Part shown: one piece after another, positions 12,737-45,045 of the stretch
Layout of the letters: each line of letters starts with the position of its first letter
Numbering within the stretch: position 1 is the stretch's first letter
From: Phenylobacterium sp.
Lineage (GTDB): Bacteria > Pseudomonadota > Alphaproteobacteria > Caulobacterales > Caulobacteraceae
Direction of reading: 5' to 3'
Length of the DNA stretch: 64,000 nt
NCBI RefSeq assembly: GCF_013911965.1
Contig: NZ_JACESE010000001.1
Coordinates: 248,001-312,000, forward strand
The notes under the pieces: generated by a model
What the model saw: only the letters and a program-made list of their open reading frames with translations
Database searches by the model: none
Told to the model about the DNA's origin: nothing
Translations under genes and position numbers: made by a program

Positions 12737-12862
12737 GTCACCTTCGGTGACAGCTCCCCCTCGCTGAGGGGGAGCATCTTTCCGGACTGAGCTCGCCATT
12801 ACCGCAGCGCAGATCCTCCCCCTCCTTGAGGGGGAGGTGGCCCGAAGGGCCGGAGGGGGTCT
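12737..12862. repeat. REP-like hairpin cluster, possible terminator
   Basis: Four perfect stems lie in a row. GTCACC/GGTGAC encloses TTC (12737-12751). CTCCCCCTC/GAGGGGGAG encloses GCT (12754-12774). CCTCCCCCTC/GAGGGGGAGG encloses CTT (12815-12837). GGCCC/GGGCC encloses GAA (12839-12851). This composition is typical of intergenic REP elements scattered in Caulobacterales genomes. The cluster lies just after the sugar dehydrogenase stop and may end its transcript. The rest of 12709-13044 has no convincing gene. Confidence 0.7.
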
Positions 12863-40497: not shown

Positions 40498-40703
40498 CAG
40501 TGGACCTCCGTCATCGGGGTGGCGGCCACCTGGGCGGCCTTGTCGGCGACCTGATTCAGGGTGGCGGCGACCTTGCGGGCCTGCTCGGGCGCCATGACCA
40601 GGATGGCGAGCTTGCCCCCCTGGCTGTTCAGCAGGCGCAGGTGGACCAGGCCGTGGGCGTCCACGGCCAGGCCGATGGCCTGGGAGATGGCGGGCCGTTC
40701 CAT
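40497..40703 (-). CDS. Small hypothetical early phage protein
   Basis: 68 residues from ATG 40703; an upstream GTG at 40706 is also possible. AIGLAVDAHGLVHLRLLNSQ is followed by GKLAILVMAPEQARKVAATL, a beta-beta-helix arrangement. It overlaps both neighbours. Unknown. Confidence 0.45.
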   Translation of the reverse strand: MERPAISQAIGLAVDAHGLVHLRLLNSQGGKLAILVMAPEQARKVAATLNQVADKAAQVAATPMTEVH

Positions 40704-41404
40704 CACGCCGCCGCCAGATCGATGGTGACCAGCTGCCAGGGAGCGCTGGTGCTCGCGCGACGATGGAACCGGAAATACTCCTTGGTCCCGATCGGGCGGA
40801 TGCTGTCGGTGACCGCCTTCATGGCGCGCTTCCAGCGCTCGTCCTCGATGCGGTAGCGCAGCAGCGAGAACATTCGGGCCGGCGAGACGTCGTTCTGCTT
40901 GTCCACGTTGAAGGCGTTCTGGACGATGGTGCGCAGCTCAGCGCCGGTCTCCGACGACCAGTCCAGCAGGCACTCGTCCACGAGCGCCTTGGCCGCCTGG
41001 AGTTCCGGCCCGAAGGTCAGGCTCGCCTGGGCGTGGCGGGCCTCTTCGCCCTGCAGCAGCAGCAGGCCTTCGTCCTGCAGGCACACGTCCCAGAGCCACA
41101 GGCAGCCGGTCGCCCGCACGAAGGCGATGAAGCGGACCAGGCTGATGTTGTGGGTGGTCTTGGACGGTGCGGTGTAGGCGTAGAGCTGCTGCGGCGTGAC
41201 CTCGTCGTCGCCCAGCAGCTCGGTCATCTCGGCGGCGATGACCGGAACCGTCTTCCCGCTCTCGCGGACGGCCTCCATCATCGACATGGAGATCTGGCGC
41301 TTCATGTCGAGCGCCTTGGGCAGGCTCTGCGGCGCCCGCACCGGCCAGACCCGCTCGACGTCGAACAGATCGCCCGTCCGATTGTCCCCCTTGGCCTTAG
41401 CCAT
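40703..41404 (-). CDS. Hypothetical early phage protein
   Basis: 233 residues from ATG 41404 (MAKAKGDNRTGDLFDVERVW). SMMEAVRESGKTVPVIAAEM, then QLYAYTAPSKTTHNISLVRF, suggests helical folds. I do not recognise a family; the length and position upstream of the small genes match early genes of unknown role in Mu-like phages. Confidence 0.5.
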   Translation of the reverse strand: MAKAKGDNRTGDLFDVERVWPVRAPQSLPKALDMKRQISMSMMEAVRESGKTVPVIAAEMTELLGDDEVTPQQLYAYTAPSKTTHNISLVRFIAFVRATGCLWLWDVCLQDEGLLLLQGEEARHAQASLTFGPELQAAKALVDECLLDWSSETGAELRTIVQNAFNVDKQNDVSPARMFSLLRYRIEDERWKRAMKAVTDSIRPIGTKEYFRFHRRASTSAPWQLVTIDLAAA

Positions 41405-41499
41405 GGGCGACCTCCGTCCCGGTTGGCCGCCGCCGCAGGGGTGCAACCGCACCTCGCGCCGTTATCCTGCGACGGGCGAATCTCCGGGAGGGCGCGGCG

Positions 41500-41933: not shown

Positions 41934-42902
41934 TCACGCATCGTCGCCTCCCAGCAGGTCGGTCTCGACCTCTTCGACCGCCTTGGGCGCCACGCGCGCC
42001 TGATAGGCGCCGTACTCCGGCGCATCCGTCGGGATCACCGCCCAGCCCTTGGGCAGGGAAAGCCCCGCTAGCCGGTCCAGGACCGCTCGGCGCTGACTGG
42101 GCGTGGCGACCTTCCAGAGCTTCTCGAACTCGCCGGGGATGTCGCGCGCCTTGGCCTTGGCGGCCGGCGGCGGCTTCCCAGCCGCGATCGCCACCGCCGC
42201 CGAGACGTTCTTCGTCTGGCCGGCCAGCAGCGGCTCCAGCGCCGCGGCCTGTAGGGCCGGATCGCCGAGGCCGGCGAGGCCCCAGAGAACCCCCTCAGCC
42301 TTCGCAATCCAGGTCCCGTGTATGCGGGCGCGAAGCTCGGGGGAGAGGCCATTAATGGTCGCCCAGGCGCGCTTCACCGTGGACTCTGACAGGCCGACCT
42401 CGCCCGCCGTATCGACGGCGAAGCCCATGGTCTGGGGCGCCCCGCCCGTAAATTGGGTAATGTTTACCTCTTTTTTCGGGCGGCCCCGTTTGCGCTGGAG
42501 GGTCCCTTCCTCAACGCTGATCCGGTCCGGAAACCGGCGGCTCCAAACGGCGAACCGCGCCTCGAGCATCTCCGCCCGCTCGAGCGGCGTGAGGCCGCGA
42601 CGGACCAGGTTCTCGTCGATCTCGATCTGACGCGCTTCGTCGTCGCTCAGCGGCCGGATCGTCGCTGGGATGGTGGCCCGGCCCAGGCCGCGCATGGCGG
42701 CCAGGCGGTGGGCGCCGGCGACCAGCTCGTACCGCTGCTCGCCCTCCTCGCCTGCGATGGGGCGGACCAGAATGGATCCGAAGAACACCGTCTCCTGGAT
42801 GGCGACCTGCAGGTTCTGGACGGCGGCGGGATCGACCGGGCGAAGCCGCGGGCCGACGCTGATCATCGAAATCGGCAGGTCAACAGGCGCTGCGGAGGCC
42901 AT
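41934..42902 (-). CDS. ParB-like N-terminal domain protein
   Basis: 322 residues from ATG 42902. The ParB core is clear: LRPVDPAAVQNLQVAIQET, QRYELVAGAHRLAAMRGLG (box II region) and EIDENLVRRGLTPLERAEML. A likely helix-turn-helix follows (DTAGEVGLSESTVKRAWATI). The C-terminal dimerisation part of chromosomal ParB is not obvious. ParB proteins are CTPases that load on parS sites. No ParA gene is adjacent, so a transcription or replication role is as likely as partition. Confidence 0.75.
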   Translation of the reverse strand: MASAAPVDLPISMISVGPRLRPVDPAAVQNLQVAIQETVFFGSILVRPIAGEEGEQRYELVAGAHRLAAMRGLGRATIPATIRPLSDDEARQIEIDENLVRRGLTPLERAEMLEARFAVWSRRFPDRISVEEGTLQRKRGRPKKEVNITQFTGGAPQTMGFAVDTAGEVGLSESTVKRAWATINGLSPELRARIHGTWIAKAEGVLWGLAGLGDPALQAAALEPLLAGQTKNVSAAVAIAAGKPPPAAKAKARDIPGEFEKLWKVATPSQRRAVLDRLAGLSLPKGWAVIPTDAPEYGAYQARVAPKAVEEVETDLLGGDDA

Positions 42903-43606
42903 CAGAGACCGCCCCCCCGCGCGCGCTTCAACTCGTCCAGCCGAAGCCACCAGCGATGCAAGGTGCTGCGGCTTGGCGTCCTTGCGGGACCGAACCGCTC
43001 CCTCATCCCCGCCAGGACGTCATCGATCCGGCCTTGACGATGGGTCGCCAGAATGTGCTGCCGGACCTCCACATCCCCGAAGAGGGCTGGGCGTCGTCCG
43101 GGCCGAAGTTCCGCCCACACATCGGCGTGCGTCAGCGCCAGGGCGCGTGCGCCGTGATCGCCGTCGCGCAGCCGCTGCCCCAGCCCCTCCAGCGCATCGA
43201 GCCGTTCGGTGAGACGCGCGAGCTGGGCGGCGACGGGGTCGCCGGCCGCGATGGGCGTCACGTCGCCTCGGGGCGCCGCCTGAAGCTCCCCGCGACGCCA
43301 GGCCATGAAGACCTCGATCACCTGGCGGCGCACCTCGGCCGCCTCCGGCGTCCGGGCGAACATGCAGACCAGCAGGGCCTGCGCTTCGTTCAGGAGATAT
43401 TCGGTAGTCGGGCGCCCGCCGGCCTTACCCGAGGTTTTCGCCACGGTGGCGAGAACCCCTAGGTCCGCGAGTTCGTCGGCGTTCCTGCGGATCAGGTTTC
43501 GAACATTGCTGACGCGCTCGAATCCGAGGCGCTCCCCCAATTCCAGGTCGCGCACCCGCGGCTCTGCGGCCATCACGTACAGGTCGGATATCGCCAGGGG
43601 GCGCAT
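42902..43606 (-). CDS. Rha/antirepressor-like phage regulatory protein
   Basis: 234 residues. GGRPTTEYLLNEAQALLVCM followed by RRQVIEVFMAWRRGELQ is the Rha/phage regulatory-protein core. The C-terminal part ends PARTPSRSTLHRWWLRLDEL, a second helix-turn-helix-like segment. It occupies the place where Mu has its transposase. The coding DNA at 43433-43457 holds a near-perfect 12-bp dyad identical in one arm to a dyad of the 44.7 kb array. Overlap with the ParB gene start indicates coupling. Confidence 0.5.
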   Translation of the reverse strand: MRPLAISDLYVMAAEPRVRDLELGERLGFERVSNVRNLIRRNADELADLGVLATVAKTSGKAGGRPTTEYLLNEAQALLVCMFARTPEAAEVRRQVIEVFMAWRRGELQAAPRGDVTPIAAGDPVAAQLARLTERLDALEGLGQRLRDGDHGARALALTHADVWAELRPGRRPALFGDVEVRQHILATHRQGRIDDVLAGMRERFGPARTPSRSTLHRWWLRLDELKRARGGGL

Positions 43607-43608
43607 GT

Positions 43609-43848
43609 CTAGCAGCCCCGCGCTTTTGGACGTTGGGTGGATGCGGTTTCCGCGCTAATTCCTGCATCGGAGATCAGCCGCTTACGCCACTCCTGGGCGC
43701 AGGGGCCATTTGTGCGGCCGCGAAGGACCTGGATCAGGTAGCTGGCGCTGACGCTGTTCTCCGCCGACCACGCCCTCAGAGAGGAACCTTGTCGAATGAA
43801 GCCGATGCGCACCTCGCGCAGCAGATCGGGGCCTGGGCTCGGGGTCAT
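43609..43848 (-). CDS. Small HTH regulator (Ner-like position)
   Basis: 79 residues. SLRAWSAENSVSASYLIQVL is a helix-turn-helix like that of Mu Ner and other short phage repressors. The gene is first in the minus-strand early operon and faces the repressor across the 79-bp operator region. Ner in Mu turns down early transcription. The start at 43848 gives the full helix. Confidence 0.6.
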   Translation of the reverse strand: MTPSPGPDLLREVRIGFIRQGSSLRAWSAENSVSASYLIQVLRGRTNGPCAQEWRKRLISDAGISAETASTQRPKARGC

Positions 43849-43862
43849 GATTGTTAACGTCG

Positions 43863-43921
43863 CTCACGTGCAATGGATGTTCACGCGTGAACACTCTAGC
43901 GACAAGCGTTCACGTGTAAAC
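43863..43921. promoter_or_regulatory. Operator region with three related dyads between repressor and Ner-like gene
   Basis: Dyad 2 is TGTTCACGCGTGAACA (43878-43893), a perfect 16-bp palindrome. Dyad 3 is GTTCACGTGTAAAC (43908-43921), imperfect. Dyad 1 is a weaker CTCACGTGCA (43863-43872). The centres are 18 and 29 bases apart. The layout fits cooperative binding by the repressor and/or the Ner-like protein over divergent promoters. The half-site GTTCACG also resembles the parS half-site, which makes the phage ParB-like protein a further candidate. Confidence 0.6.
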
Positions 43922-43927
43922 AATTAA

Positions 43928-44416
43928 ATGGCTGTGGCGGACGACATCGAGGCGTTGCGGGTCGCGCTGAACGCAAAGAACGACTCCGAGCTAGCTCGTC
44001 AGTTGGGCGTAAATCGCTCCGCTATTTCGCAGTGGCGCGACCGCGGCGCAGTGCCGAATAAGTATTTGCAGCTATTGGTTAGCCCAGCAGCCGCCGATTA
44101 CGGGCGCGCGCTCGACGCCGCCCTGCGACTGCACATATTCGGTCGCGTCGAGGCGGCATATTGGTTGCGCGCCGCCCTCGCAGTCTTTCCCTTCGATGAG
44201 ATGAAAGAGGCGAACGTTGACGCCGTCTTCCTCGACAATGTTGAGCAGGCAATGATGCAGCTTATGGGGCTCGCAATCACGGCCACGAACGTCGGCCTTA
44301 AGCAGGAACTTTGCCGCGACGCGGCTGACTGCGATCGGGTGATCCAGATCCTCAAGACGGACTTCGCCGATGAGATCGAGCGGATCGCCAGCCTCTTGGT
44401 GAGCGGTGGCGGCTAG
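43928..44416 (+). CDS. Phage repressor-like HTH protein
   Basis: 162 residues from ATG 43928. DSELARQLGVNRSAISQWRD is a clear helix-turn-helix near residues 18-37. The remaining 120 residues (RALDAALRLHIFGRVEAAYW, AVFLDNVEQAMMQLMGLAIT) are helical and do not look like a LexA-type protease. It is divergent from the early operon and the only plus-strand gene at this end, as expected for the lysogeny repressor. DNA binding to the adjacent dyads is inferred. Confidence 0.65.
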   Translation: MAVADDIEALRVALNAKNDSELARQLGVNRSAISQWRDRGAVPNKYLQLLVSPAAADYGRALDAALRLHIFGRVEAAYWLRAALAVFPFDEMKEANVDAVFLDNVEQAMMQLMGLAITATNVGLKQELCRDAADCDRVIQILKTDFADEIERIASLLVSGGG

Positions 44417-44447: not shown

Positions 44448-44806
44448 GGGGGTTTGCCGCACGGTGCGGCAAACCCCCAGTCGACGTCTCCCCGATCGGC
44501 CGCATCCTGGGCTCCCTGACCCTCCGCCGCGCGTCATAGGTTTGCCCCACCGTGGGGCAAACCCCCAGCGGATCATCGCTTCAGATTGAAGCGATGATCG
44601 GATTGGCGCCGCAGATCGCGGGGCCGATGCAGACGTGCCCCACCATAGGGCGCGCCACGGTGGCGCACGTCGCCCTGGCGACCCAGTACGGCCACGCTGA
44701 AGGGGTTTTCGCCACGGTGGCGAAAACCCAGCGGATCATCGCCCCACGGTGGGGCGATGATCGCCAGATCCAGGATCATCGTTCCACCGTGGAACGATGA
44801 TCCTGG
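44448..44806. repeat. Array of seven perfect dyads with covarying arms
   Basis: Centres lie at 44463, 44551, 44585, 44659, 44716, 44748 and 44788. Arms (left halves) are: GGGGGTTTGCCGCAC (1); GGTTTGCCCCAC (2); GATCATCGCTTCA, 3-base spacer (3); GCGCCAC (4); GGGTTTTCGCCAC (5); GATCATCGCCCCAC (6); CCAGGATCATCGTTCCAC (7). The matching right arms are exact reverse complements, so arm changes are compensated. All but dyad 3 have the core CAC-N-GTG. Outer arms fall into two types, GGTTT and GATCATCG. No gene is convincing here. Confidence 0.9.
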
Positions 44807-44829: not shown

Positions 44830-44962
44830 TTCCCAGTTCGAGTTCGACTTCGGCCCGGCCAGATCGGCCCGACCGATTCTTATCCATTTGTCTTTCTTAG
44901 CGTTTTCGGAACTGGGAACGCCCGGCGAAACTGGGAAGGACATTTCCCAGTTCGTTTCCCAG
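44830..44962. repeat. Repeated nonamer AACTGGGAA in both orientations
   Basis: Copies of AACTGGGAA lie at 44910-44918 and 44929-44937. The inverted TTCCCAGTT lies at 44830-44838 and 44944-44952, and a partial TTCCCAG at 44956-44962. The 44929/44944 pair forms a dyad with a 6-base spacer. An AT-richer stretch (44876-44905) lies between copies and could contain a promoter. No gene is seen. Confidence 0.7.
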
Positions 44963-45045
44963 ATCCGGCGAGGCCTGGCCCGCGCTGAGGCCTCTGTTCA
45001 CCCACGCCTCGAACACCCTTCGAGCGACCTTCAAACCCGTTCCGA

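Follow-up and report, generated by a model that had tools for sequence, protein, structure and literature searches.

An array of seven palindromes beside a prophage repressor gene and its relatives inside Rha-like antirepressor genes

Background

Antirepressors help to decide when a prophage awakens, and we know of no described DNA target of a Rha-like antirepressor. In RepABC replicons, palindromes with GTT...AAC outer arms and variable inner arms are read by RepB, and in Bacillus subtilis a parS site, which is nearly invariant, lies within the spo0J/parB gene. The palindromic incompatibility regions of RepABC replicons are described as unique to each replicon in the available part of the source (PMC9044938), and the specificity of ParB and Noc is switched by four residues (PMC7383237, available part). 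Palindromic DNA can also be part of coding sequence: Rickettsia palindromic elements of about 150 bp lie in frame in unrelated genes (PMC10969869, available part), and PARCELs are tandem 25-residue amphipathic coding repeats with dyad-symmetric DNA, which occur sporadically, are associated with mobile elements in some taxa, and in many cases lie in open reading frames (ORFs) with membrane-targeting sequences (PMC2996958, available part). The Rha family (PF09669, with members in phi80 and P22) is the kind of gene that carries the palindromes described below, and an intragenic palindrome is not mentioned in the available part of its description (PMC4936722).

The array analysed here lies in the window, i.e., the whole 64,000-nt stretch of DNA under study, and its coordinates are positions in that stretch. 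It resembles the RepABC palindromes, which are specific to their compatibility group (PMC9044938, available part). Unlike those, the array palindromes are longer, mostly have a 1-bp centre, have kin inside phage antirepressor genes, and stand beside a repressor gene; no RepABC genes were seen in the stretch read. As with parS in spo0J/parB, a palindromic site is found inside the gene of its own (here putative) binding protein; unlike parS, the rha palindrome varies widely and encodes a hypervariable loop. The palindromes share their in-frame position within coding sequence with the Rickettsia palindromic elements (PMC10969869, available part), but are 15-43 bp long and return at the same loop of a single gene family; ParB-like genes hold comparable ones. 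PARCELs were likewise rejected as an identification, as the ORFs of the array match no family and the loops hold one or two palindromes. Precedents thus exist singly for specificity palindromes, for sites in a regulator's own gene, and for palindromic coding elements, and none was found for the combination. What appears to be new here, judged from sequence comparison, is that most palindromes of the array are extragenic kin of palindromes that antirepressor genes carry within them. Searches of open-licence PMC papers brought up no description of them.

Methods

The palindrome score was defined as the number of matches minus twice the number of mismatches, with a centre of 0-5. For a palindrome-independent sample, IMG/VR was searched with the conserved peptide that follows the loop of Rha-like proteins (A3), and the 120 nt before the peptide were scored. 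The search yielded 40 loci, from which nine were dropped as duplicate loops (L196, L197, L212, L222, L225, L227, L228, L229, and L231) and two because of missing upstream sequence (L207 and L219), leaving 29. A second set was collected with the pattern GGTTTNNNNCACSGTGNNNNAAACC, which fixes the outer arms and the core only. For comparison with the array, 25 nt of each array element were aligned with 38 in-gene palindromes, and core-preserving shuffles served as control. The set of ParB-like genes (n = 11) comprised those of nine named Mu-like phages, of L014, and of the window; four unannotated fragments were left out.

Results

Structure and coding content of the array

Seven near-perfect palindromes were found at 44448-44806, all at the positions given by the original prediction, with arms of 7 to 18 bp and a centre of 1 bp in six and of 3 bp in one (Table 1). 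Odd-centred palindromes with arms of at least 7 bp gave 12 counts in the region, where five of the seven sites were entered under two gap settings, whereas 2000 first-order Markov resamplings averaged 0.11 counts and never exceeded 3; the palindrome density is thus far beyond chance. By their outer arms, elements 1, 2, and 5 are of a GGTTT type and elements 3, 6, and 7 of a GATCATCG type. The original prediction had recognised only these two kinds and has to be amended, since the fourth site belongs to neither and, with its imperfect ACGTC outer arm, makes up a third type. A CAC-S-GTG centre is common to six of the seven. A unit made up of a GGTTT-type palindrome, the linker CAGCG, and a GATCATCG-type palindrome is present twice (44539-44599 and 44703-44762, with two extra C in the first linker); its outer arms are kept, and its inner arms differ by changes that are mirrored in both arms. 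The dyad symmetry itself is maintained, in line with the original prediction.

The four ORFs of at least 60 amino acids that overlap 44448-44806 had no match in PHROG or Pfam at an E-value of 0.1, and the G+C content by codon position on the minus strand was unlike that of the neighbouring genes. Protein coding was rejected on the basis of the ORF searches and of this minus-strand pattern, and within the limits of these tests the block is gene-free, as originally described. The array contained no recognisable promoter-like site. Intrinsic terminators (a GC stem followed by a T run) were rejected as an identity of the palindromes: three terminator-like sites were predicted, as compared to a shuffle mean of 1.4, and the one that overlaps the array (44747-44731, minus strand) does not consist of one of the seven palindromes followed by a T tail. 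The array folds strongly as RNA (z -10.3).

Table 1 Coordinates of the array, of the surrounding prophage genes, and of related palindromes (positions in the window unless a locus is given)
Feature	Position	Strand	Details
Array palindrome 1	44448-44478	no strand	GGTTT type, arm 15, 1-bp centre; best in-gene match 23/25 (L057)
Array palindrome 2	44539-44563	no strand	GGTTT type, arm 12; 23/25 vs loop palindromes of L048, L050, L056
Array palindrome 3	44571-44599	no strand	GATCATCG type, arm 13, 3-bp centre; 16/25 vs L206, weak
Array palindrome 4	44652-44666	no strand	Third type, GCGCCAC core, imperfect ACGTC outer arm, arm 7; 20/25 vs L224 and L232
Array palindrome 5	44703-44729	no strand	GGTTT type, arm 13; 25/25 vs L042, 24/25 vs own rha-like gene
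Array palindrome 6	44734-44762	no strand	GATCATCG type, arm 14; 22/25 vs L209
Array palindrome 7	44770-44806	no strand	GATCATCG type, arm 18; 18/25 vs L209, weak
Prophage repressor, CI-type HTH	43928-44416	+	PF07022, E 1.6e-6, 28.8 bits vs cut-off 22
Small HTH protein, Ner position	43609-43848	-	phrog_15281 2.4e-7, phrog_925 2e-4
Rha/antirepressor-like gene	42902-43606	-	PHROG 63 anti-repressor Ant, E 3.8e-9; phrog_373 6.3e-7; Pfam Phage_pRha 24.1 bits, curated cut-off 29.9
In-gene palindrome, 11/12 pairs	43433-43457	no strand	Inside rha-like gene, hypervariable loop, peptide GVLATVAKT
ParB-like gene	41934-42950	-	PF02195; phrog_3264 8.6e-39; no linker palindrome, best score 6
Fusion of early regulator (N-terminal part) and DUF3164 (C-terminal part), in frame	40703-41452	-	Protein family matches
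Even-centred palindrome TGTTCACGCGTGAACA	43878-43893	no strand	Gap between repressor and Ner-like gene; likely repressor or Ner operator, unlike array
Five TTCCCAGTTC-like repeats, both orientations	44830-44965	no strand	Probable transposase sites, prophage left end
Linker palindromes in ParB-like genes of Mu-like phages	L014:1920-1944, L033:5045-5067, L035:3093-3119, L037:3279-3301, L041:9404-9432, L272, L273

Prophage setting

The array belongs to a Mu-like prophage, where it is flanked by the repressor gene on one side and by the repeats of the left end on the other; it starts 31 bp past the stop codon of the repressor gene, whose 3' end points into it. The early genes run in the opposite direction, in the order small HTH protein, Rha-like, ParB-like, and early regulator-DUF3164 fusion. 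The locus accordingly has a divergent repressor/Ner-like pair, early genes, and end repeats as in a Mu-like left end, with the transposase genes absent from their place. The first part of the fusion protein is 62% identical over 129 residues to the early regulator of L014. In RcapMu, RcWaterboi, RR1-B, and StopSmel, parB is followed by a small gene and then by the transposase genes, and we therefore infer a deletion here: the genes of transposases A and B have apparently been lost from the window prophage, leaving the regulator-DUF3164 fusion. An RcapMu gene tried as the counterpart of DUF3164 showed no similarity. The originally described setting was recovered as regards the adjacent repressor gene and the transposase genes missing from their usual place after parB.

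The array was also considered as the operator of the adjacent repressor and rejected, as the palindrome TGTTCACGCGTGAACA in the repressor/Ner-like gap, the probable operator, differs from all array arms. The corresponding gaps of RcapMu (L033:3160-3182) and RcWaterboi (L034:1815-1837) hold palindromes with a common centre, TTTACTAAA, and different, fully mirrored outer arms, which are perhaps immunity-specific operators.

Palindromes inside Rha-like antirepressor genes

The sole further copy found outside the array in its own genome lies in the rha-like gene (43433-43457). This gene matches the antirepressor families phrog_63 and phrog_373, and its conserved domain could be aligned over 29 sequences; it is called Rha-like because its 24.1 bits against PF09669 lie below the curated cut-off of 29.9. 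The loop that holds the palindrome is the longest consensus-free stretch inside the conserved domain of the protein alignment, and no relative of the Rha domain with a solved structure was found by sequence. Rha-like genes of the unrelated phages ctOK67 and phiKX1, identified by protein similarity, have a palindrome of this kind in the corresponding position.

In IMG/VR, the pattern GGTTTNNNNCACSGTGNNNNAAACC matched 18 stretches, the arms being perfect in 11, with one mismatch in one, and with two or three in six. Eight of the 11 perfect-arm stretches were in Rha-like genes and seven in the loop (gene assignment by translation); L052 has the GGTTTNNNNCACSGTGNNNNAAACC palindrome at the end of the domain and another palindrome in the loop. 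Of the remaining perfect-arm stretches, that of L054 was in a gene read as ParB-like and those of L046 and L047 were outside such genes. None of the six stretches with two or three mismatches was in a Rha-like gene. Among 398 Pseudomonadota genomes, only the genome of the array itself matched the pattern.

In the palindrome-independent sample, 13 of the 29 loops scored at least 10, as compared to 14 of 1467 windows taken elsewhere in these loci, the loci being partly interrelated (e.g., L214, L215, L218, and L233) and therefore not independent. At a score of at least 8, the numbers were 24 of 29 and 68 of 1467, the 24 including L210 and L230, whose palindrome lies at least 100 nt upstream and outside the loop. 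Five of the 29 loops scored only 5-6. A search of 289 genomes of the class gave 11 matches in five genomes, six of them with a loop palindrome and one of these six being the window itself; L070 is a partial match with a palindrome nearby. From the phage records retrieved with a consensus query, of which 11 of 45 were read, scores were taken without a control of their own, values of 5 to 7 being near the control mean of 5.1 of the palindrome-independent sample: ctOK67 scored 12, phiKX1 9, phiKX2 11, cta39025 12, Gordonia phage Cashline 8, Vibrio phage 242E40-1 6, and Javan62 5, and the Streptococcus satellites Javan564 10, Javan225 9, and Javan634 and Javan401 7. The in-gene palindromes are clear in alphaproteobacterial phages and many IMG/VR contigs; a Gordonia phage and some satellites of Streptococcus have them as well.

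Two palindromes per Rha-like gene were observed in L052, L199, L204, and L205, the one at the domain end of L052 having 21-bp arms, and a repeated loop segment was seen in L044. Palindromes of the same kind that look extragenic lie at L047:2033-2134, L055:434-635, and L054:4911-4929; that of L047 adjoins a Rha-like gene whose loop, by eye, is without a palindrome. The other phage loci analysed, 1.3 to 14 kb in size, were searched for a second copy of their own loop palindrome (at most 6 mismatches), and none was found beyond tandem loop copies and one match at chance level in L202.

DNA-level constraint on the in-gene palindromes

Covariation was determined on 18 GGTTT-like in-gene rows, 17 of them distinct, which had been hand-picked as palindromes of that type; seven of the 18 came from the pattern that fixes the outer arms and the core and leaves four inner pairs free. 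In this set, 95.6% of cells were paired, as compared to 79.6% after shuffling (0/500 shuffles), 28 cells were changed on both sides, as compared to 8.8 (0/500), and the covariation score was 0.396, as compared to 0.114 (0/500) and to at most 0.09 when slid. The covariation proposed in the original prediction as a check on aligned copies was thus found, and two further measures were unremarkable, namely the pairs with changes on both sides (six of 12, reached by 34/500 shuffles) and the further pair types (reached by 223/500). Upon synonymous recoding with the protein fixed, the observed pairing was reached in less than 5% of draws for 33 of 37 palindromes; these had been chosen for being palindromic, so that selection enters into the test. 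Of the 38, one had no assigned frame.

The centre of the palindromes fell on codon position 3, 1, and 2 in 24, nine, and four cases, respectively. As all three positions are used, it is the DNA and not the peptide that is shared. Arm mismatches across the 38 palindromes were G.U in eight cases, A.C in ten, and other in eight, which gives no sign of RNA-type wobble, the numbers being small. With the mirrored arm changes, the three reading frames, and no excess of G.U taken together, the constraint looks to act at the level of DNA, beyond codon choice.

Array elements compared with in-gene palindromes

Elements 1, 2, 4, 5, and 6 matched in-gene palindromes at 20-25 of 25 positions, with at most 1.7% of core-preserving shuffles being as good. 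The values for elements 3 and 7 were 16/25 and 18/25, reached by 20% and 24% of shuffles, respectively, and the outer arms GATCATCG of these two equal those of the L206 loop. By this sequence comparison, five array palindromes are clearly, and two weakly, assignable to families of palindromes that code for the hypervariable loop in Rha-like proteins.

The outer arms GATCATCG are unspecific by themselves: a fixed-length pattern with these arms matched 54 stretches, with a single one in a Rha loop (L248, on the same contig as L206) and five with 4-5 of the 6 inner pairs in unrelated genes. Of at least 120 matches to an open-gap GATCATCG pattern, 80 were inspected, with arms of 11 in four and a Rha-like frame (by eye) in none. 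The full GATCATCG-type pattern had no match in 298 other genomes of the family or in IMG/VR.

Palindromes in ParB-like genes

A palindrome scoring at least 9 was present in seven of the 11 ParB-like genes, as compared to 22 of 115 equally long windows from other parts of the loci; at a score of at least 11, the numbers were five of 11 and six of 115, one of these six being the array. The excess is weaker than in rha. As read, the parB palindromes are located at the linker before the HTH, and their cores differ from those of the array, with AA-N-TT in four of seven. The Sinorhizobium phages StopSmel and Aussie have different ParB-gene palindromes at about the same place. In the Rha-bearing contigs L198, L199, L207, and L208, a palindrome was found in a frame read by eye as ParB-like.

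Searches for other copies and arrays

DNA similarity to the array was restricted to seven phage and five plasmid records, all weak (E 0.1 to 0.3), and a comparable array was absent from the two that were followed up (L234 and L235). Among 101 genomes of the genus, four weak matches besides the own genome were without odd-centred palindromes of the array kind, and a pattern for two adjacent GGTTT-type palindromes had no match in IMG/VR. A protein search of the genome contigs found no relatives of the repressor and the ParB-like protein. A REP or other dispersed host repeat was rejected, as only the array and the one copy in the rha-like gene were found in the own genome.

Discussion

Taken together, we tentatively read the array as a cluster of putative DNA recognition sites of the kind carried inside the coding sequences of Rha-like antirepressors, a reading that we hold at somewhat less than even confidence. 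Of the readings considered, the one proposed in the original prediction, with the palindromes as putative sites for dimeric proteins of one family that differ in their inner specificity, is the best supported. A dimeric DNA-binding protein, most likely the Rha-like protein itself, would read the palindromes, the shared outer arms being common to the sites and the variable inner arms setting the specificity. The in-gene copy would be an autoregulatory or loading site, and the array beside the repressor gene would bind the prophage's own and foreign antirepressors, and thereby titrate them or allow the prophage to respond to them. Support comes from the in-gene family in unrelated phages, the excess in peptide-selected loops, the covariation and recoding results, the use of three frames with no G.U excess, the matches of array elements to loops, the duplicated unit, and the precedent of replicon-specific palindromes in RepABC plasmids (PMC9044938, available part). 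Against it count the lack of a second palindrome copy in other phage loci, which is unusual for a repressor-type regulator, and the position of the array downstream of the repressor gene with no promoter-like site found in it, as well as the failure of the sequence search to find a solved relative of the Rha domain, the weak loop matches of elements 3 and 7, the five loops at 5-6, and the two of five covariation measures that were unremarkable (34/500 and 223/500).

A bolder version of the site reading, which we regard as unlikely, is that specificity is self-encoded: one stretch of DNA would code for the loop with which the antirepressor reads DNA and would at the same time be the palindromic site read by that protein, so that site and reader change together, and the array would be a register of own and foreign antirepressor sites with which rival phages are sensed or disarmed. 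If the palindromes are recognition sites, those in the loops give a concrete candidate site for each Rha-like protein, and, to judge from the array, a prophage may maintain sites that fit the antirepressors of other phages. It is unusual for the loop of a regulator to be under a constraint at the DNA level that exceeds codon choice.

Palindromic coding elements that move or are exchanged, in a loop that tolerates insertion in any frame, would account for the three occupied reading frames, for the genes with two palindromes (L052, L199, L204, and L205), and for the extragenic-looking copies in L047, L054, and L055, the array then being a non-coding cluster without a regulatory role. Known analogues insert in frame (Rickettsia palindromic elements; PMC10969869, available part) or are coding repeats with dyad symmetry (PARCELs; PMC2996958, available part). 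Still, the members differ by mirrored substitutions and are not copies of one master, and dispersed copies are missing from the own genome, which is also the only one of 398 with the GGTTT-type pattern; we consider this account rather unlikely, and the original suggestion of a palindrome family that spreads by copying is weakened by the mirrored substitutions and the lack of dispersed copies. For a packaging or attachment region, also proposed then, nothing was found in either case. The original interpretation was to fail if homologous regions showed the array as ordinary coding sequence; related palindromes are indeed mostly coding elsewhere, but they are kept as palindromes beyond codon choice.

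Control at the RNA level, in which the repressor transcript would end in the array and the array hairpins would pair with the matching self-complementary hairpins of rha mRNA so as to silence antirepressors, appears quite unlikely to us. The position of the array, which follows the repressor stop codon by 31 bp and lies in the reading direction of that gene, the strong RNA fold (z -10.3), and the 24/25 match of one element to the own rha loop fit such control, and antisense RNA control of antirepressors in P22 and P1 counts in its favour; against this, G.U was not favoured over A.C (eight vs ten), each palindrome folds on itself, and promoter or terminator signs for such a transcript were not found. 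A parS-like centromere or loading array read by the prophage's ParB-like protein is very unlikely: the adjacent parB-like gene, the palindromes scoring at least 9 in Mu-like ParB-like genes (7/11 vs 22/115 windows), and the group-specific palindromes of plasmid partition sites (PMC9044938, available part) are consistent with it, but the parB-gene palindromes have other cores (AA-N-TT in 4/7) and none is present in the window's own parB-like gene. A purely mutational origin, in which template switching perfects quasi-palindromes in unconstrained loops and spacers, would produce mirrored changes without selection; as palindromes of this quality are rare elsewhere in the loci (14/1467 windows at score 10), and cores are common to distant phages and to different frames, we judge it highly improbable. 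Palindromes are hard to assemble, but an assembly or sequencing artefact is hardly credible given seven different palindromes here and family members in many independent records.

Elsewhere in the window, two similar palindromes with 10-bp arms (CCCCCTC...GAGGGGG) were observed at 12753-12775 and 12815-12837, their starts being 62 bp apart.
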